Assembly: GCA_905182125.1 (NCBI GenBank)
Contig: CAJJAV010000016.1
Location: forward strand, 1-50,891
Direction of reading: 5' to 3'
DNA from: an uncultured Candidatus Poseidoniales archaeon
GTDB taxonomy: Archaea; Thermoplasmatota; Poseidoniia; Poseidoniales; Poseidoniaceae
DNA: 50,891 nucleotides
How positions within the stretch are numbered: the stretch's first letter is position 1; each line of letters starts with the position of its first letter. Under the pieces are notes generated by a model. That model was not told where the DNA came from and did not search any database. It was given only the letters and a program-made list of their open reading frames with translations. Of the stretch, positions 40,563 through 48,684 are shown piece by piece. The position numbers and the translations under genes are program-made.

Positions 40563-40682
40563 ATTGGGTTGTGGTGATGGTGCCTTGATGAGTCTTTGCG
40601 CCCATGGAGGCTTCACAGACAGGGTTTGGTCCAACCCTCTGCCAACCGAATGCCTTTGAGGGGACGACGCTTGGCGTTGAAC

Positions 40683-42119
40683 ATGAGCGCAGAACAGATG
40701 TGGGTCGCCGGTGAATGGTGCGATGCCGAAGATGGAGCAACAGCAGATATTCTCAACCCCGCAACGGGCGAAGTCATGGCCACCACACCAAAAGCAACCT
40801 TGAGCGATGTCGACCGCTGTGTTGACGCATCACGGGCTGCTTTCAACGATGCTTCATGGAAAGCGATGGACCCTGCTCAACGGGGTCGAATTCTCAACAA
40901 AATGGCTCAAGCCACGTATGCCAACGCCAAGGCACTCGCTGTCATTGAATCCAACAACAACGGCAAAACATTCCGAGAAGCACTGTCGGAAATCCGTTAC
41001 GGTGCATGGACCCTCGAATACTTCGCAGGACTTTCTGATAAGATCGAAGGCTCGACCATCCCCGTTCCTGGCAACCGACTGAACTACACCTTGCGCCAAC
41101 CGCTTGGCGTCACCGTTCACATCATTCCTTGGAACTTCCCGCTTCAGTTGGCACTGCGCTCGATTGCTCCAGCCCTTGCTGCTGGATGCACCGTGATTGC
41201 AAAGCCAGCATCGTGGACTCCACTTTCGCTCATCGCATGGGCCAAGGCCATGGAAGAAGCAAAAGTCGGCCTCCCTACGGGTGTGCTCCAAGTGATCACC
41301 GGATCTGGTGGACTGATTGGGGACGCACTCGCTGGCCACACCAACGTCGACGGCGTTGTCTTGACGGGCGGCGTTCCAACTGGCCGGGCGGTTATGGCAA
41401 AGGCAAGCGAGAACCTCACCCCAGTCACCCTCGAACTCGGTGGCAAGGGAGCAAACATCATCTTCCCAGATGCTAACCTTCGTTATGCAGCCAAAGCCAT
41501 TTGCTTTGGAATCTTCATGAACGCTGGTCAAATGTGCTGGGCTGGTTCACGCCTCATCGTCCACGAAGACGTGCACGATGAACTGGTCGAAGCCGTATGC
41601 GCTGAAGTCGCCAAGTGGAAGGTCGGTCCGGGCATGGAAGAAGGCGTCCGAATCGGTAGCCTTGTTCACGAATCCCACCGAGCCGAAGTGATGGAGAAAC
41701 TCCAAGCAGGCTTGGCCATGGGTGGCGAGGTCGTTTGTGGTGGCAACATCATCGAGGGCACTGGAGCGTTCATGGAAGCGACCGTTGTCACCGGTGTTGA
41801 CAAAGACAACCTGCTGTTCAATGATGAATTGTTTGGACCTGTCTTGGCCGTCACCAAGTTCAGCGAGGATGCTGAAGCACTTGCTTTGGCCAACGACTCA
41901 CCGTTTGGATTGCTTAATGGCATCTGGACCAACAACCTCAGCCGAGCGCATTCGATGGCTCGAGATTTGGAAAGCGGTATGGTTTCAATCAACGAATACC
42001 CGATCACCTTCCCACAAACCGCCTTCACAGGCTGGAAGCAATCTGGCATCGGTGTTGAACAAAGCCAAGACGCCATGCGCTTCTACACCAAGGTGAAGAA
42101 CGTCAACGTCAAACTCTGA
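40683..42119 (+). CDS. NAD(P)-dependent aldehyde dehydrogenase
   Basis: Oxidises an aldehyde to the acid. The 478-residue length and blocks are typical of the betaine/succinate-semialdehyde class: IIPWNFPLQLALRSIAPALAAG, the general base Glu in VTLELGGKGANI, nucleophile Cys in NAGQMCWAGSRL and ELFGPVLAVTKF. ATG 40683 (MSAEQMWVAGEWCD) starts just before the first strand; the frame opens earlier but the extra residues overlap the divergent kinase gene. The frameshifted crotonase begins nine bases after its stop, which suggests both served one CoA-thioester or semialdehyde pathway. Confidence 0.94.
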   Translation: MSAEQMWVAGEWCDAEDGATADILNPATGEVMATTPKATLSDVDRCVDASRAAFNDASWKAMDPAQRGRILNKMAQATYANAKALAVIESNNNGKTFREALSEIRYGAWTLEYFAGLSDKIEGSTIPVPGNRLNYTLRQPLGVTVHIIPWNFPLQLALRSIAPALAAGCTVIAKPASWTPLSLIAWAKAMEEAKVGLPTGVLQVITGSGGLIGDALAGHTNVDGVVLTGGVPTGRAVMAKASENLTPVTLELGGKGANIIFPDANLRYAAKAICFGIFMNAGQMCWAGSRLIVHEDVHDELVEAVCAEVAKWKVGPGMEEGVRIGSLVHESHRAEVMEKLQAGLAMGGEVVCGGNIIEGTGAFMEATVVTGVDKDNLLFNDELFGPVLAVTKFSEDAEALALANDSPFGLLNGIWTNNLSRAHSMARDLESGMVSINEYPITFPQTAFTGWKQSGIGVEQSQDAMRFYTKVKNVNVKL

Positions 42120-42128
42120 GGTGAACGG

Positions 42129-42923
42129 ATGAGTGTTGAATCCACGGACATGGAAAATGGGGTGCGTCTGATCAGATTTTCTGGTCAATCAGCAACCCAA
42201 TCCTTCTCTCGAGAGTTCTTACCGTTGATCGCCAAGGCAATTGATGCGGGACTCATTCATCCAAATGTTCGAGGAATTGTACTCACTGGAGAAGGGCAAG
42301 TTTTTCTCTGCAGGCGCAGACATACACGCTTTCGCACAATCGATTGAAGATGAAGATGCGCCTCAATTAATTCGAGACCTCACCGGAATCCTTCACCCTC
42401 TTGTTGATTCGTATGCGCCAATCCTCAACCATTTGCATCGCTGCCTGTCAACGGCGCGTGTGCTGGCGGCGGACTTGGTCTTGGCACTGGCTTGTGATGC
42501 ACGTATCGCTTCACCAAAGCAAAGATGGCTGCTTCCTATGCAGGCATGGGTCTGTCACCCGACGGTGGCACAACATGGCTCTTGCCTCGACTTGTTGGCG
42601 AATCAAGTCACCCGACGGTTCTTTTTTGAAAATGAAATATGGGATCGCGGAGCAATGCCTTTCAGTCTGGGGCAATCGATGCAATCGTCGAAGATGAAAA
42701 CCTCCTCGAAGCAGCCTATGCAATCGCTGAACGTTGGAGTCAATGGGGTACTCATACCAAAGAAGCAACGAAGCACTTACTGGATGTACAATCAATTCAT
42801 GATTTCGAAACTCATCTCAAGCATGAACGAACTTTGATCGAAGCTGCGGGAACAACAACTGCTTTCAAAGAAGGCGTCACTGCTTCTCGAAGATTCAGAA
42901 AAGCACAGAACCGTAATTTCTAA
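42129..42923 (+). pseudogene. Crotonase family (enoyl-CoA hydratase/isomerase) gene broken by at least six frameshifts
   Basis: Family blocks are visible only by switching frames. NVRGIVLTGEG (frame from 42129) continues as KFFSAGADIHAFA after an extra G near 42295. ICIAAVNGACAGGGLGL needs shifts near 42430 and 42445, and LALACDARIAS another near 42484. MAASYAGMGLSPDGGTTWLLPRL lies in a third frame from about 42521, and GAIDAIVEDENLLEAAYAIAE resumes after shifts near 42620-42655. A product of about 262 residues would result if repaired. It follows the ALDH gene closely. Either a decaying gene or a badly sequenced one; its neighbours up to 49 kb show the same kind of lesion. Confidence 0.8.
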
Positions 42924-43301
42924 ACCATGCCTTGAGTGACTCGATCCCTAAATTGAATCAACGGCGCGAAGCTTTCGTCCATGAACCGCCACTGCTGAAC
43001 AAGCATACCAAACTTCTCTCGAAGCACCAAACATGCGCTGCATGGTAAATTGGTGGCGTGACACAAAAATCACTTCCTCCGTCCTCATTCCACGCGTGTG
43101 TTTTCGGATTCTGCTGCGGATTTTCCGAACGATGTCATCCAATTCGATGTCAGGGTGATCGACAAAAATACAACACGCTCCCGTATTATGTATTTCTATC
43201 ACGGGACTGTTTTGAGTTTTATCAGCGGTGCAGGAATGTTTCTGCGCAATATCCTCTTAGTACAAACATACCTAGGAATTACCCTCGCCATTACTTAAAC
43301 A
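42924..43301. other. Gap without a confident gene
   Basis: 378 bases between the broken crotonase and the nuclease-like gene, visibly AT-richer than the flanks. The only candidate is the 84-codon minus-strand frame listed at 42948-43202. I see no RNA gene, terminal repeat or integrase. Confidence 0.5.
42948..43202 (-). CDS. Possible small protein downstream of the nuclease-like gene
   Basis: 84 residues reading plausibly as protein in the middle (IELDDIVRKIRSRIRKHTRG, then VIFVSRHQFTMQRMFG). There is no recognised family, no signal and no clear ribosome site. It lies about 100 bases downstream of, and on the same strand as, the PD-(D/E)XK-like gene, so it could be its partner. It may equally be a remnant or a chance frame. 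Confidence 0.35.
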   Translation of the reverse strand: MIEIHNTGACCIFVDHPDIELDDIVRKIRSRIRKHTRGMRTEEVIFVSRHQFTMQRMFGASREVWYACSAVAVHGRKLRAVDSI

Positions 43302-44454
43302 TCACAGTTTCGCTTTCAATTCTTTTGCGAACTTTGTCTCATCTGCGTTCTTCTTTCGTAATTGTTCCGCAACGGGGTGTGCGAAATAAAACTCAGCAAA
43401 ATCAACATCAGTTAGTGTCTTCGTGCTGAGGTATCGTTGAAGGAATGCCTCAGTGAATTCGGCGTGCAAGACGGCGTGCTCCAATAGTTTCTGCACATCC
43501 GTGTTCATTTTTATTGTCGTTTCCACATGACCTTCTGATTTTGTCTGAAATGTCTCTGACATCCCCCACATAATGCAGAATTCGTTTCACAATCATTTCG
43601 ATGATCCCAGGATTGACATCCAGATTATCTCTCGTGTGATGGACTGCCATATCTCGAGCAATTTTGTATGTGAGGAGAAGATTTGTGTAATCTCCACTTT
43701 GAGAGTCGATAATGACGACGAAGCCAGGAACCCCTGGCAAATATGCAACATCAGATACATTCTTGGAAATCGATGAAGAGGGGAGTTGTTTATCCAAAAC
43801 GATAATCGAAAATGGTGAGTCACGGTTGGCTTTTGTTTCAAGTAACTGCGACCAAACGGTCTTCTTATCGCTTGCAGCAAATCCTTTATCCATTGGTTTA
43901 CCAGTGTCCACATTGAATTTTTCTGGATCGCCAAATGGAAAATTTTTCTCAAATTTAACCTCGATGCCAACAGTGGTTAGCTCGGTTGAGCCACCGTCCT
44001 TTGGGGTGAACTCAACAGTTGCCAGAACATCCCCTGTTTTGTTTGGATCGCCCTTAGCAGACTCAAGTTGACCCTTTGTGAGCCCTGATTTCACGATGTG
44101 ATCTGACCATTTATTCTTGGTTGCATATTCATTAAGAATATCCACAATATCACCCTCTGCAAGGTCTCCCTTTTTCTGAGCCGTGTCTTCAAATTCGGCT
44201 TTTCTTCGTTCAAATTGTAGTTTGAACCTCTCCAATTGTGGAAAGATTTGCTTTTCTGTGGCATCAATAAGATGAGAAATCCTGTCAGACATCATGGCGA
44301 GTGCTCCAATGTGGAGCATCGCTTCGAATGTTGTTTGGCGCTCCTCTTTACCAAGATTATTGAACAATTGATAAACCAAGGGATCGTTTGAATCGAATTC
44401 TGGGAATTTAACCAACTCATTTTGAGAATCTAGGGTGATAACCTTTCTTGCCAT
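43302..44454 (-). CDS. PD-(D/E)XK nuclease-like protein, frameshifted near its C-terminus
   Basis: From ATG 44452-44454 (MARKVITLDSQNE), an N-terminal coiled part (TEKQIFPQLERFKLQFERRK) precedes a restriction-enzyme-like core. The helix Glu is in AEGDIVDILNEY (about residue 100), Asp in KTGDVLATVE (142) and the ExK pair in GIEVKFE (165, 167). A conserved-looking tail follows (PFSIIVLDKQ, PGFVVIIDSQSG). The frame runs on to 43450 with a poor-looking tail, whereas the overlapping frame to 43302 reads convincingly (TIKMNTDVQKLLEHAVLHAEF), so one shift near 43530 probably joins them into about 384 residues. AT-richer than its neighbours and splitting a metabolic cluster, it looks acquired; a defence role is inference. 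Confidence 0.65.
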
Positions 44455-44504
44455 GCTTCTCCTAATCCTCATTGACGAATAATGGTGCCGATTTGGTTTT
44501 GCGA

Positions 44505-45383
44505 TCACCATTCGAAGAAACCTTGACCAGATTTCTGACCAAGATGGCCCTTGGCCACCATTTCTTCCAACAGTGGGTGTGGCGCATATCGGTCGTCATT
44601 GAATGAGCGTTGCAAGTTGAGAAGAATATCTCGACGAACGTCCAAGGCCAACAAGGTCTGTCAACTTGAGTGGTCCCATTGGATGCTTGTAGCCAAGCAC
44701 CATCGCCGTGTCGATGTCTTCTGCGCTCGCCACGCCGTCAGCAAGCATGCGAATCGCTTCGTTGCCAAGCACAACACCGAGTCGACTTGTCGCAAACCCA
44801 GGCACGTCCTTGACCAAAATGGTGGTTTTGCCCATCGCTGCACCTGCCGCTTCAGCAGCAGCAACAGTTGCGTCGCTGGTTGAATCGTGGCGAACAAGTT
44901 CGAGCAGTTTCATGATTGGAACCGGATTGAAAAATGCATGCCAATGACCTGTTCTGGCCTGCTTGTTGCTCCAGCGATTCCCGCAATAGAAAGTGAGGAG
45001 GTGTTGGTGCCAAGAATGGCATGAGCTGGAGCCAAGCGATCGAGATCTGCAAAGATGCTCTGCTTCAAATCTGGAATTTCTGGTACGGCTTCAATCACCA
45101 TGTCAGCGTTGCCAACGGCTGCTGCCATATCGCTAACAGCGTGGAGGTTTTTCCCCCATTCGGCCTTTTGCTCTGGCGTCGTCTTGCCGCGAGCGATGCC
45201 TTTGTCCCAGAAGGCGTCAATACGAGCCATGCCCCGTTCTAAGCCTTCAGGAAAAGCATCGAACAGGTTGGTTTTCCAGCCGCTCTGAGCACAGATTTGG
45301 GCGATACCAGCACCCATGGTTCCAGCACCGATGACAGCGACTTCTCGAATCTCCATGCTTGATGCGAAGGGGGCGAACTTCAT
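44505..45383 (-). CDS. 3-hydroxyacyl-CoA dehydrogenase, interrupted by two frameshifts
   Basis: Oxidises 3-hydroxyacyl-CoA with NAD in beta-oxidation-type pathways. The Rossmann start VAVIGAGTMGAGIAQICAQSG and ADMVIEAVPE with GTNTSSLSI are in the first frame (45383 to 44910). This frame runs VIGMHFSIRFQS and stops, where one extra T in the T-run near 44932 would give the family sequence HFFNPVPIMKLLELV in the next frame. That second frame (to 44596) must lose a G near 44645 to read DLVGLDVRRDILLNLQRSF and to end GQKSGQGFFEW at 44505. The repaired protein is about 290 residues, normal for the family. ATG 45383 overlaps the EamA stop as ATGA. Confidence 0.85.
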
Positions 45384-46306
45384 GATGCTTCCTCGCCCTT
45401 TGCCTGTTGACTTTGAGCGAGTGCAACACCACCGACAATGAGCACGAATGAGATGAGCAGCGGCACACCGAGCTTCTCATCCAACAACAACCAGCCGCTG
45501 AAGATACCGAACGGTGGTACCAAGTAGACGTAGAGGGCGCTCTTTCCTGCACCAATTGTTCTGATGCCATCAGCAAACCAGACGTAGGAAATGACGGTTG
45601 AAAAGACAGCTAAAAACACCAAAGAAATCCAACCGTAGAGGTTCGGGTCAGGCCATCCAACATACCAGGTCTCAACCGCAACCATTGGTGTGAGCAGCAA
45701 AAATCCAACCACGGATGACCAAACGGTCAGTTGCAACGGTGAAAGCGATTCAGTTGCATCGGGTGCGGGTGTGGTCATCGCTTTCTTCATCAAAATGCTG
45801 TTGCAAGCCCATGACAAGGCTGCAGCTGCAATCAGAAGGTCGCCCAAAGCCCGCTCATTGAACGGGATGTCGACGTTTGGTGAATACAGGAATAGAATCG
45901 TCACACCGATGATGCCCATAGCCAAGCCAGTTCCGAGTCGCCAATTCATGCGTTCATTGAGGAAGAAAATTGCTAACAGAGCGGTAAAGAATGGATTGAA
46001 CGTGATCATCAAAGAAGCATCTCCCGCGGCGGTATACTGCATTCCAAACATGAAAAATGCCTGGTAAACAACCGTTGAGAAAGAACCCAATCCAAGCGAT
46101 TCGTTTCCATTCGCCTCGAGTTGGAAACACCCAATTATTCGTGAAGAAAAGGAGCGCTGCAAAGCACGCCAAAGCAACCACATAGCGTGTCCATGCCGCG
46201 ACAAATGGAGCCATCTCCTGCGGCCAGAACTCGCCCTGCGGGCCAGCCGAAGCCCCAGACGGCGGCGACAAAAAGGAGTTTGAGAGTGAACCAACACATG
46301 CTTCAT
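45380..46306 (-). CDS. EamA family (DMT) transporter, N-terminal third frameshifted
   Basis: A ten-helix drug/metabolite transporter. From about 46090 downward the frame is intact, with FSTVVYQAFFMFGMQYTAAGDASLMITFNP and the second EamA repeat, ending LAQSQQAKGEEAS. The first 75 residues of this frame (CRRRLGLRLARRASSGRRR) are not membrane-like. Other frames supply VAAVWGFGWPAGRVLA, then EMAPFVAAWTRYVVALACFAALLFF, as expected of EamA. At least three indels, one in a five-T run near 46270, would restore a normal protein. ATG 46306 overlaps the upstream gene's repaired stop as ATGA. Its place between pathway enzymes suggests uptake or efflux of the pathway substrate. Confidence 0.82.
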   Translation of the reverse strand: MKHVLVHSQTPFCRRRLGLRLARRASSGRRRWLHLSRHGHAMWLLWRALQRSFSSRIIGCFQLEANGNESLGLGSFSTVVYQAFFMFGMQYTAAGDASLMITFNPFFTALLAIFFLNERMNWRLGTGLAMGIIGVTILFLYSPNVDIPFNERALGDLLIAAAALSWACNSILMKKAMTTPAPDATESLSPLQLTVWSSVVGFLLLTPMVAVETWYVGWPDPNLYGWISLVFLAVFSTVISYVWFADGIRTIGAGKSALYVYLVPPFGIFSGWLLLDEKLGVPLLISFVLIVGGVALAQSQQAKGEEAS

Positions 46307-46841
46307 TCAAACCGCTCCAAACCAAGTTGGAGCATGCGGGATCGTGGTAGGCCTATTTCTGGTAAACCTGCGGCTGGAGCGTACATCTTCAACGCCTCTC
46401 AAGCGTGCAACATACAGCCCATAGGAGGCTATGTCGTCTGGCAAGTAAGGGGTTGGAACGCCCATTCGGGTGAGGGTTGCGCACGCTGCTTCAGAGTAAA
46501 TGGGGAAGAGGTTGGTGCTAAAATGCATCCATTCCGAAACACGCTGCGCATCGATGTTGTCGAGCGTCAACAGGTGTTCAAGCATGGAGACATCGGGGTA
46601 AGTTGTCGGTTCGAAGCGTCATTTCGACCTCGTTGGTGATGTCTTCTGGCCAAGCAAACGGTTGGTGGTTCGACCATTGGTCAGCGATTCGGATGTGCTC
46701 AAGCGAGGCTTCAGTTTCGATCGAGAACAACGCTTGTGCGTAGCTTTCGTCGTCCACGCTGTCAGCGACCAGAGCCGGTAATGCTCGATAGAAAGCTTCA
46801 CACAACTCAATGTCTACACCGTACAGTGCCACAGGAATCAT
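46303..46841 (-). CDS. Unknown protein following the diiron oxygenase, frameshifted
   Basis: Begins MIPVALYGVDIELCEAFYRALPALV at ATG 46841, seven bases after a GGAGG. A shift near 46610 is needed to continue as FEPTTYPDVSMLEHLLTLDNIDAQRVSEWMHF. Another near 46370 gives YAPAAGLPEIGLPRSRMLQLGLERFE, whose stop overlaps the EamA ATG as ATGA. The repaired protein is about 179 residues, helical, soluble and without cysteine-rich or nucleotide motifs. I do not recognise the family. Its constant coupling to the oxygenase suggests a subunit or accessory factor; that is inference. Confidence 0.65.
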
Positions 46842-48024
46842 AGTAAATCCTCCGGTGAGATATCAGGCCTTTGCCGCCGATGCCGGACGCAATGTGGCGT
46901 GCGGACATTGGCTTGTCAACGACCCATTGTTGCTTGAAGAGTTCTTTGAGGGTCACTTCATCTTCTGGACGAGCGAAGTGGTTGTGCATGTAAGCATCCC
47001 ATTCTTCATCCGAGCCTGTGAAGAGATCGCCTTCAACAGTGCATCGCTTGTTCTTGAATGCTCCAATGCTTCGTTGGAAGTTTTCGTGAGGAACATAGAG
47101 TTTTGTTGCTCCTTCTGGAAGGTAACCACACAGCTTTTGCACTTCACCAACAATTTCATCGTGGTAGTGACCGCGGGCTTCTTCGTTGAGTGTTTCCTTG
47201 TTCACTTCGACGCCTGCTTCGAGTTTCTTACGCTCGTCCCAGCGGCCTTTAACGCCCCAAACATAGGACCAGTGAGCGGATGAAGATGCATCGACACCGA
47301 ACAGATCGTGAGCTGTTGAGACCCACTTGTTGATGTAGCGTTGAAGCAAATCCAACGGGATGACTTCTGCCTTGATCACACGTCGTAGGCCGTTGGAACC
47401 TGTTCCAAGGTGGAATGATTCTTCTTTGAGCATTGGGCCCATGGAAGCTGCGAGTGGCTTGAATGCAGAAGTCGAAAGCATACCAAGTTGGAATTTTCCA
47501 TCTCGGTCCACGAACATGGTGTAGCAGAAGAAGTCGAGCCAATGAGGCATTGGTCGGTTGAAAGCGCCGAGCAAACGGTCGCCATCTTGTGCATTTCGTT
47601 CGAGGAGTTTTTGTGCTTCACGACGTCCTTGTTGTCCAAAGTAAGTCATCAAGAGGTAAGCCATTTGCCAGCCGTGACGTTGTTCTTCAGCCATGATACG
47701 AGCTGCTGCATAGCGGTCGTAATCGGTTGGAGCAGATGCGAGGAGGTGGCGTTGTTGTTCAACCGAAGCGAATTCTGTATCGCCTTGAACAGTGATCATG
47801 CTCACCAGAGCATCACGCATGCTTTGTTGAGGGACTTGAAGGCTTCGTTCCCACTTTGGTCGTCCAGCGTAATCACCGTATTCGATGACATCGCCTGCTC
47901 GGTCCCAATCAAATTGAATCGAGAGGTCAAAGTCGCCCATCCAATCACGGTTGAAACCAACACGGTCTTGCCATTCGGTAAAGTTTGAAACCCAGTCTTC
48001 CCAGGTATTTGGTAGATTGTCCAT
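46807..48024 (-). CDS. BoxB/PaaA-family diiron oxygenase (benzoyl-CoA epoxidase B-like)
   Basis: A ferritin-fold diiron monooxygenase. Iron ligands appear as two ExxH sets: Glu114 and His117 in MAEEQRHGWQMAY, and Glu202 and His205 in MLKEESFHLGTG, with a likely early Glu84. The surrounding sequence (PHWLDFFCYTMFVDRDGKFQL, SSAHWSYVWGVKGR) resembles, from memory, benzoyl-CoA 2,3-epoxidase subunit B more than phenylacetyl-CoA epoxidase A. The 405 residues are shorter than BoxB (about 470). The open frame ends at 46807, but its last 30 residues look wrong; a shift near 46905 gives an ending PDISPEDLL whose stop overlaps the next ATG (46841) as ATGA. No reductase gene (BoxA or PaaE) is adjacent. 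Confidence 0.8.
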   Translation of the reverse strand: MDNLPNTWEDWVSNFTEWQDRVGFNRDWMGDFDLSIQFDWDRAGDVIEYGDYAGRPKWERSLQVPQQSMRDALVSMITVQGDTEFASVEQQRHLLASAPTDYDRYAAARIMAEEQRHGWQMAYLLMTYFGQQGRREAQKLLERNAQDGDRLLGAFNRPMPHWLDFFCYTMFVDRDGKFQLGMLSTSAFKPLAASMGPMLKEESFHLGTGSNGLRRVIKAEVIPLDLLQRYINKWVSTAHDLFGVDASSSAHWSYVWGVKGRWDERKKLEAGVEVNKETLNEEARGHYHDEIVGEVQKLCGYLPEGATKLYVPHENFQRSIGAFKNKRCTVEGDLFTGSDEEWDAYMHNHFARPEDEVTLKELFKQQWVVDKPMSARHIASGIGGKGLISHRRIYYDSCGTVRCRH

Positions 48025-48062
48025 GACACTCCGAGGTACGGGTCTACCTTATTGCCTTTGCG

Positions 48063-48084
48063 AACATGTTCGTACGAACATGTT
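48063..48084. promoter_or_regulatory. Perfect 22-bp palindrome, putative operator
   Basis: Two copies of AACATGTT, each itself palindromic, flank the palindromic CGTACG, so all 22 bases match their reverse complement. It lies 38 bases upstream of the oxygenase ATG and overlaps the stop of the regulator gene, a natural place for an operator controlling the oxygenase operon. Read on the minus strand it could also fold as a terminator hairpin, but no T-run follows. Confidence 0.7.
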
Positions 48085-48684
48085 AGGGGCTACGGCGCCT
48101 GATGTCATCTGCAAAGGCATGGTGCACGGTTGATTCAATACGTTGTAACTGGGCGGAAAGTGTTGATTTGGCCACTTCGAGAACCACTGCAAGTTCAGTC
48201 AAGGTGATTCTTCGTGGCACATCATAGAAGCCTTCTTTCATCGCTGTATCGAACACATAGCGCTGGCGAGGCGTGAGCAGACGATTGGTAACTCCACGTG
48301 TAGACACCAACCGATAAGGGATGTTCTCTTCATCGAACCCGGCAATCAAGGCTCGAACTTTCCCTTGGGCGCATGCAATGGTCCAATCGACCCACCCGTC
48401 GCGGACTTCAAACGGGGTATGGGGGATCACACCAACGCGGAGCAGTGGCTTGAGAAAACCGCCACCTCCAGCGATGATGTCCACCGCAAATTGTCGTTTT
48501 CCAAACGCACGAACCTCTTCGATTCCCGAATGAGTTCCATCGAATTCTTCCCATGTATGGGGGACTTCAAGAGCGGCATGTGCTCTTCGATTCGTAACAC
48601 TGCTGACGGGTGGCTGCGCGTCACATCGCCTGCCCAATGCCCTTCGGGCAATCGAACTTCAATGCGAACTTGCTGCACGCTCAT
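48083..48684 (-). CDS. HTH transcription regulator, bacterio-opsin activator (HTH_10) type, frameshifted
   Basis: The C-terminal HTH_10 domain is intact: LTPRQRYVFDTAMKEGFYDVPRRITLTELA followed by VAKSTLSAQLQRIE. The start is ATG 48684, which overlaps the FBPase stop as ATGA; this frame reads MSVQQVRIEVRLPEGHWAGD and HPSAVLRIEEHMP. After about 48570 the protein continues in the other frame (EEFDGTHSGIEEVRAFGKRQF), so one indel separates the halves. The repaired length is about 200 residues, the usual sensor-plus-HTH form of archaeal Bat-like regulators. It precedes the oxygenase operon and overlaps the 22-bp palindrome, so it is the best candidate to control it. Confidence 0.85.

Follow-up and report, generated by a model that had tools for sequence, protein, structure and literature searches.

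Can an uncultured marine archaeon use oxygen to attack aromatic rings that are bound to coenzyme A (CoA)? This question is raised by a gene cluster on contig CAJJAV010000016.1 (assembly GCA_905182125.1) from a Candidatus Poseidoniales archaeon, the 50,891 nucleotides of which are called the window in the following. The window is contig C16 of the metagenome-assembled genome (MAG) G000, which measures 1.85 Mb and is 82% complete, and its nearest named relatives are the Candidatus Poseidoniaceae and Poseidonia MAGs, that is, Marine Group IIa, a part of Marine Group II (MGII). The initial annotation had recognized a diiron oxygenase with BoxB-like iron ligands (OXY), a protein of 179 residues without known counterpart (P181), a 3-hydroxyacyl-CoA dehydrogenase (HAD), a crotonase (ECH), an aldehyde dehydrogenase (ALDH), and an EamA transporter, and had pointed out that such functions form the aerobic benzoyl-CoA (box) or phenylacetyl-CoA (paa) routes of bacteria. 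A second crotonase, found in the relatives, is called ECH2. We suggest, with a probability of about one half, that OXY epoxidizes an aroyl-CoA in the manner of BoxB and has P181 as its dedicated partner, that ECH2 opens the ring, and that beta-oxidation follows. The two genes at the center of this proposal are located in the window as follows.

46807-48024, minus strand: OXY, BoxB-like diiron oxygenase, open reading frame (ORF) of 405 amino acids (aa); PF05138 with 54 bits, TIGR03225, PDB 3per
46306-46841, minus strand: P181, predicted helical partner of OXY, in three frame pieces; found by profile search

The oxygenase and its active site

Loci with a match to OXY were fetched from related genomes. 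The 100 loci obtained represent 97 distinct ones (L130, L131, and L132 duplicate L035, L038, and L040), and OXY is readable in 89 rows or 86 distinct loci. The survey of active site residues comprises 88 rows, equivalent to 85 distinct MGII sequences, as L086 with 358 aa was left out by the length filter.

The phylogeny which the initial annotation had proposed as a check groups the oxygenase with BoxB. In a tree of 28 rows calculated with IQ-TREE, eight MGII sequences, six other full-length sequences from Thermoplasmatota, and three bacterial BoxB proteins form one clade with an ultrafast bootstrap (UFB)/SH-aLRT support of 99/99, and PaaA is placed outside these 17 rows. Program warnings concerned long branches among the rows outside and a bootstrap that had not settled; the branching within the clade is not resolved by this tree. 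The best match of OXY in the PDB is BoxB (3PER, E=5.7e-51). OXY is 37-41% identical to three BoxB proteins over 331-371 aligned columns and contains the BoxB-type motifs QGDTExASVEQQ, EExRH, DRDGK, and EExxH. However, with about 386 aa it is shorter than BoxB (475-481 aa; TIGR03225, PDB 3PER/3PM5) and scores under the family cut-off; in addition it is accompanied by P181, and neither boxA nor a two-domain boxC was found.

The iron ligands of BoxB and the residues orienting the benzoyl group are listed in an excerpt of PMC5489048. The six diiron ligands Glu120, Glu150, His153, Asp211, Glu240, and His243 (BoxB numbering throughout) are kept in all 88 rows, as the initial annotation had expected. 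The same holds for Gln116, Thr119, Ser123, Phe193, and Phe203, so that five of the seven second-shell residues are present in every MGII copy. Position 206 is occupied by Tyr in 76 rows, as in the Poseidoniaceae, and by Phe in 12. Thus, judged from the aligned residues, the pocket largely resembles that of BoxB, with position 210 as the one consistent departure. Among the solved structures, the short protein 4MUD (235 aa; "ring oxydation complex/phenylacetic acid degradation related protein") shares 35% identity with OXY over 153 columns and keeps the iron ligands, but differs from OXY at residues 116, 119, and 123.

These residues also bear on a paa-type pathway supplied by phenylalanine. OXY and PaaA belong to the same superfamily, PF05138, the small partner P181 is loosely analogous to PaaC of the PaaABCDE system, and the crotonase and dehydrogenase classes found nearby are PaaG-, PaaH-, and PaaF-like. 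On the other hand, PaaA of Escherichia coli and of Haloferax departs from BoxB at positions 116, 119, 123, 203, 206, and 210, with His, Ser, and Gly at the first three, and OXY does not have the PaaA-type pocket residues. With the PaaA model TIGR02156 OXY reaches 37.4 bits, the cut-off being 280. The search for pathway parts covered 22 genomes (20 Poseidoniales and 2 others) together with 14 control genomes. PaaB was found in none of the 22 genomes and in three of the controls; in the own genome, 82% complete as stated, the only two PF05138 hits are both OXY copies, so that no PaaC was seen there, and indolepyruvate:ferredoxin oxidoreductase did not exceed its cut-off in any of the 22. On account of the pocket residues, the missing PaaB, and the lack of PaaC in the own genome we have rejected the reading of OXY as PaaA, and we consider a phenylacetyl-CoA pathway very improbable.

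P181 and the distribution of the pair

OXY and P181 are both readable in 85 rows, that is, 82 distinct loci, and in all of them P181 comes after OXY on the same strand with a median gap of 16-17 bp (median gaps were computed over rows, duplicates counted). A tblastn search located P181 next to OXY in 94 of the 97 distinct loci, and the three others (L110, L111, and L122) end 5 to 149 bases past the OXY match. The cluster is therefore not a product of chance.

The phylum survey of 292 Thermoplasmatota genomes leads to the same result. The OXY profile gave 98 positives: 38 in the family of the window, 39 in a second family of the order, presumably the Thalassarchaeaceae, 8 other full-length, and 13 short or distant matches. 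The latter 13 (E weaker than 1e-50) were separated by eye, which leaves 85 genomes with full-length OXY. P181 was detected in 83 of the 292 genomes with alignment A5, which includes distant members, and in 80 with the narrower A3. All 83 have a full-length OXY, P181 without OXY did not occur in the 292 genomes, and full-length OXY without P181 is restricted to G058 and G095, where OXY lies at a contig end. None of the 13 short-OXY genomes gave a P181 match in this search. In G130 the two genes are found on different contigs.

In most MGII relatives P181 has a length of about 177-191 aa, depending on the start codon chosen. Nothing in Pfam exceeded the cut-off, no NCBIfam model matched at E 0.001, and the profile search against the PDB returned nothing useful (one match with E 5.3). 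P181 had no match in plasmids, and in PHROGs only single-member matches with E 0.02-0.09. The AlphaFold model is all-helical with a pLDDT of 84.7; a Foldseek search with this model yielded nothing at E below 1, and the TM-score (query) was at most 0.40. Several glycosylases were among these weak hits, but a relation to HhH-GPD DNA glycosylases is not supported by hhalign, in which MutY and Nth of E. coli stayed below a probability of 1%. Since no cysteine is among the columns that are invariant across both MGII families, P181 is unlikely to have an iron-sulfur role. The claim of the initial annotation that this protein has no known counterpart thus holds, and by all sequence comparisons P181 is a real, conserved partner gene that matches no known family. 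By analogy, P181 would most likely be a structural or coupling subunit dedicated to OXY, taking the role which PaaC has for PaaA without being related to it in sequence.

Within the order the oxygenase is widespread. A close homologue is present in 51 of the 59 genomes searched around the window (own genome included) and in 15 of the 15 searched genomes with a completeness of 90% or more and a contamination of 5% or less. Such a wide presence in a streamlined order, the high conservation (mean column identity 87%), and the lack of a clear catabolic entry enzyme would be expected if OXY carried out a biosynthetic or housekeeping ring hydroxylation, for example in the precursor of a cofactor or of a quinone, and P181 acted as a targeting protein. 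We regard this explanation as improbable, because the frequent company of HAD and crotonase points to breakdown and because the profile search found no OXY in any of the six genomes of f3, a family of the same class, all of which do without the module.

The proposed route and what weighs against it

The route that we propose for the OXY-P181 system would start at the diiron site of OXY, where O2 and two electrons are used to epoxidize the ring of benzoyl-CoA or of a closely similar aroyl-CoA. ECH2, a single-domain crotonase, would then open the ring hydrolytically, and ALDH or another dehydrogenase, ECH as isomerase, a hydratase, HAD, and a thiolase would bring the product through beta-oxidation. 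The electrons may be delivered by a CysJ-like FAD/NADPH reductase that is devoid of its usual partner. It is the active site that suggests an aromatic substrate, and of all steps the first is best supported by sequence. By strict tests the system falls outside the Box pathway in its bacterial definition, but its action may well resemble the opening steps of that pathway.

The initial annotation had considered the crotonase of the cluster as a box or paa part. This is borne out for the PaaG-like ECH of the window (42129-42923), but the crotonase resembling the N-terminal half of BoxC, ECH2, lies outside of it. ECH2 is absent from the window, and the own MAG contains an intact ECH2 on contig C19 (G000 C19:37256-37741). 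Within the eight loci with full-length OXY from other Thermoplasmatota (L149-L156), ECH2 is found at a distance of at most 4 kb from OXY in five (L149, L151, L153, L155, and L156), and it is directly beside a short-form OXY in two further loci (L157 and L159). ECH2 keeps both glutamates of a hydratase. The motif FC..(2-6)..[NQ]E[TA], a pattern picked after the alignment had been seen, is present in 10 of 10 ECH2 sequences and in both BoxC N-terminal halves, and in none of 11 other crotonases and BoxC C-terminal halves. It also occurs in the ECH2 of the own MAG and in PDB 2PPY and is missing from four further plasmid crotonases. According to an excerpt of PMC4498308, the active center of BoxC is confined to the N-terminal crotonase domain, and BoxC co-purifies with BoxB. 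ECH2 has in common with BoxC (PDB 2W3P) this FC...NET motif as well as both Glu positions of the N-terminal half; it differs in being a single domain of about 285 aa which is also near to generic hydratases. The best-scoring models of ECH2 are those of enoyl-CoA hydratases, and its closest solved relative is 2PPY, a protein labelled only "Enoyl-CoA hydratase" which we take to be from Geobacillus. Aerobic benzoate catabolism has reportedly been studied in Azoarcus and Bacillus stearothermophilus, to go by a title in a reference list.

Next to ECH2 a GGR-like FAD flavoprotein was noticed in both MGII families (L034 580-1830, L125 5656-6972, L174 2309-3658, and L175 16559-17851); the protein of L125 obtains 28 bits with TIGR02032, well under the cut-off. 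Near the flavoprotein of L175 there is an ORF for a 2[4Fe-4S]-like ferredoxin, with relatives in L123, L124, and L129.

Of the further parts for which a genome search had been proposed, thiolases are present in 22 of the 22 genomes, but PaaB is not found, and neither BoxC nor benzoate-CoA ligase exceeds its cut-off. For BoxC the best hit per genome has 65-91 bits with a cut-off of 712, and as the 14 controls were negative as well, the power of this search is unproven. PF00175 reductases were detected in 21 of the 22 genomes, with one strong match in each of the 20 Poseidoniales (G041 has a second hit of 22 bits). Two reductases that were scanned consist of CysJ-like FAD/NADP domains and reach 82-87 of 459 bits with the BoxA model, in the C-terminal part only. 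With tblastn the same CysJ-like protein turned up in 13 of the 20 Poseidoniales genomes, those from which a locus was examined. Its distance from OXY is at most 25 kb in 11 of the 20 (2.8 kb in G121). As none of the 22 genomes has a match to PF01077 (sulfite/nitrite reductase), with 11 of 14 controls positive, the CysJ-like reductase probably has an acceptor other than sulfite reductase. It may be the electron donor of OXY; we treat it as a candidate and no more. The reductase of the own MAG lies on contig C12 (G000:C12 = L167, L176), and its relatives are in L161-L175. The protein of L171 has 612 aa and begins, in our reading, with a flavodoxin-like stretch; those of L163, L167, and L175 are shorter.

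A number of observations weigh against an aroyl-CoA epoxidase and the route built on it. With the BoxB model TIGR03225 OXY scores 224.5 bits, under the curated cut-off of 499.1, and all tested pathway enzymes likewise stay under their curated equivalog cut-offs. The structure model of OXY, with a mean pLDDT of 56, was too poor for a structure search. Thr210 of BoxB is replaced by Val (76 rows) or Ile (12 rows) in every MGII copy, and position 210 of PaaA is also Val/Ile-like, with Val in the E. coli and Haloferax proteins. In BLASTP comparisons ECH2 is closer to E. coli PaaF (107-144 bits) than to the N-terminal half of BoxC (72-104 bits), and against the PDB BoxC ranks far below ordinary hydratases. 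In the crotonase tree the ECH2 proteins of genomes with full-length OXY are grouped with PaaF and PaaG by a branch with 89/94 support, and the N-terminal half of BoxC is left beside a Haladaptatus crotonase and the ECH2 proteins from genomes with short OXY; as far as these sequences allow, the trees do not clearly join ECH2, that of MGII included, and BoxC. Three of the eight loci from other Thermoplasmatota (L150, L152, and L154) have no ECH2 within their stretch. Concerning the electron donor, no fusion of the BoxA type (2[4Fe-4S]-FNR) was seen, the BoxA model not having been run genome-wide. In two OXY genomes from outside the order a strong reductase is lacking: G117 has no PF00175 protein and G059 only a weak one of 300 aa. 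Of the 20 Poseidoniales genomes, one has the reductase 107 kb away from OXY and eight have it on another contig. Benzoate-CoA ligase was over the cut-off in none of the 22 genomes and in one of the 14 controls, ADP-forming synthetases not being included in the search. The corresponding numbers for indolepyruvate:ferredoxin oxidoreductase are none of 22 and two of 14, and we have rejected an entry of aromatic amino acids through this enzyme. Finally, ALDH had been counted as a cluster member, and this could not be upheld: the ALDH near the cluster in the second family is only 30-36% identical to that of the Poseidoniaceae, and on this comparison it represents a different lineage in the two families and is not a conserved member.

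OXY could instead act on a non-aromatic acyl-CoA, be it unsaturated, cyclic, or isoprenoid, in the degradation of fatty acids or lipids by MGII, and its neighbors would then be ordinary beta-oxidation enzymes. By HMM the neighbors indeed belong to generic beta-oxidation classes, and several of the above findings fit as well, namely the best scores of ECH2 with enoyl-CoA hydratase models and 2PPY, the want of an aromatic CoA ligase or indolepyruvate:ferredoxin oxidoreductase above the cut-off, and the exchange of Thr210. In addition, MGII are described as users of lipids and peptides in the excerpted text of PMC9723583. However, most residues in contact with the BoxB substrate are retained, OXY belongs to the BoxB clade, and ECH2 carries the motif of the BoxC N-terminal half, so that we view a non-aromatic substrate as possible but doubtful. 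The assignment to either the box or the paa route made by the initial annotation is sustained in part, by the BoxB-like OXY, HAD, the PaaG-like ECH, the thiolases, and the ECH2 motif usual in the second family, and not by PaaB, a fusion of the BoxA type, or BoxC and benzoate-CoA ligase above their cut-offs. The aroyl-CoA epoxidase of the BoxB kind is the reading that we prefer.

Gene order around OXY and its meaning

The remaining features of the window are the following.

48083-48637, minus strand: HTH_10 regulator just upstream of OXY, 5′ end frame-broken; PF04967 with 52.7 bits
45380-46306, minus strand: EamA transporter, 5′ part frame-broken; PF00892 with 122.9 bits
44508-45383, minus strand: HAD of the PaaH/3-hydroxybutyryl-CoA dehydrogenase type, frame-broken; PF02737 and PF00725
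43450-44511, minus strand: ORF of 353 aa between HAD and the crotonase, no Pfam match
42129-42923, plus strand: ECH, PaaG-like crotonase with LSPDGG motif, frame-broken; model scores of relatives, alignment, and position
40596-42119, plus strand: ALDH of the betaine/phenylacetaldehyde type; PF00171 with 526 bits, BADH model with 437 of 669 bits, PDB matches

Pfam and NCBIfam confirmed the ALDH, crotonase, HAD, EamA transporter, and diiron oxygenase of the initial annotation, and the cluster recurs in relatives. In the window, however, frame changes break six of the seven cluster genes: HTH_10, the 3′ end of OXY, P181, EamA, HAD, and ECH; ALDH is whole. Since many relatives carry these genes unbroken, we regard the breaks as errors or local damage, and the analysis worked from the intact genes of the relatives instead of the broken copies. 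The part of OXY that is homologous to the relatives, most of whose intact Poseidoniaceae members have 386-387 aa, stops near 46870, and 19 extra residues are attached at the 3′ end. The profile pieces of P181 overlap (46587-46841, 46382-46606, and 46306-46419), the 3HCDH pieces recognized by Pfam cover 44596-45383 on the minus strand, and the homology of ALDH begins near 40680.

Loci from the family of the window are arranged as HTH_10-OXY-P181-EamA-HAD; ECH and ALDH lie further out and are mostly encoded on the opposite strand. In the Poseidoniaceae the median gap between HTH_10 and OXY is 58 bp, and the median overlap between EamA and P181 is 4 bp. In 13 of the 16 loci of the second family the order is ECH2-OXY-P181-HAD on one strand with ECH2 directly before OXY; in the remaining three (L114, L122, and L128) OXY is preceded by HTH_10, with ECH2 either 4-7 kb upstream or beyond the stretch. 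EamA was not found in these 16 loci. An intact HAD homologue reaches 340 bits with PRK05808, below its cut-off of 408, and intact ECH homologues score best with the alternative type of oxepin-CoA hydrolase or with PRK05981, PaaG being among the next, all under the cut-off.

A second HTH_10-OXY region, 96% identical, is located at the end of contig C19 (G000:C19:42501-43268, L113), for which reason the MAG seems to be a mixture of two strains. The 353-aa ORF has a relative only in L045 (30% identity) among the 100 OXY loci, and the gap between HAD and the crotonase therefore looks like a variable site for accessory genes. On a Thermus plasmid (L194) and on Haladaptatus plasmids (L184 and L195) genes annotated as phenylacetic acid catabolic protein and metal-sulfur cluster assembly factor lie near a crotonase. 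The Haladaptatus plasmids also carry a PaaB-like gene, and in L195 a gene of the benzoate-CoA ligase family is nearby; these gene sets are possibly another variant of aryl-CoA epoxidase.

The boxB label is not new for these archaea, as the benzoyl-CoA oxygenase (boxB) is already named among the highly expressed MG-II genes of the Red Sea in the excerpted part of PMC5069720. In the open-licence literature listed under box and aromatic terms we saw no other boxB statement for MG-II and nothing on P181, on the motif shared by ECH2 and BoxC, or on the missing parts, P181 as such not having been a search term. Going further, and with low confidence, we put forward that OXY and P181 might together form the core of a new class of aroyl-CoA epoxidases made of two proteins, spread over several families of Thermoplasmatota and often associated with ECH2, a single-domain ring hydrolase of a kind that could have yielded the active half of BoxC. 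P181 might then be an epoxidase subunit belonging to an undescribed protein family, and MGII, very abundant in the surface ocean, might consume aromatic carboxylic acids. With so few genes, the set can be expressed and assayed directly. If our reading is true, the O2-dependent breakdown of CoA-bound aromatic rings would be a core trait of MGII, and very abundant uncultured archaea of the plankton would take part in an oceanic carbon flux that is seldom credited to archaea. BoxB would gain an archaeal sister group that has what may be a simpler counterpart to BoxC, together with a new partner protein, and the origin of the box pathway would become testable.

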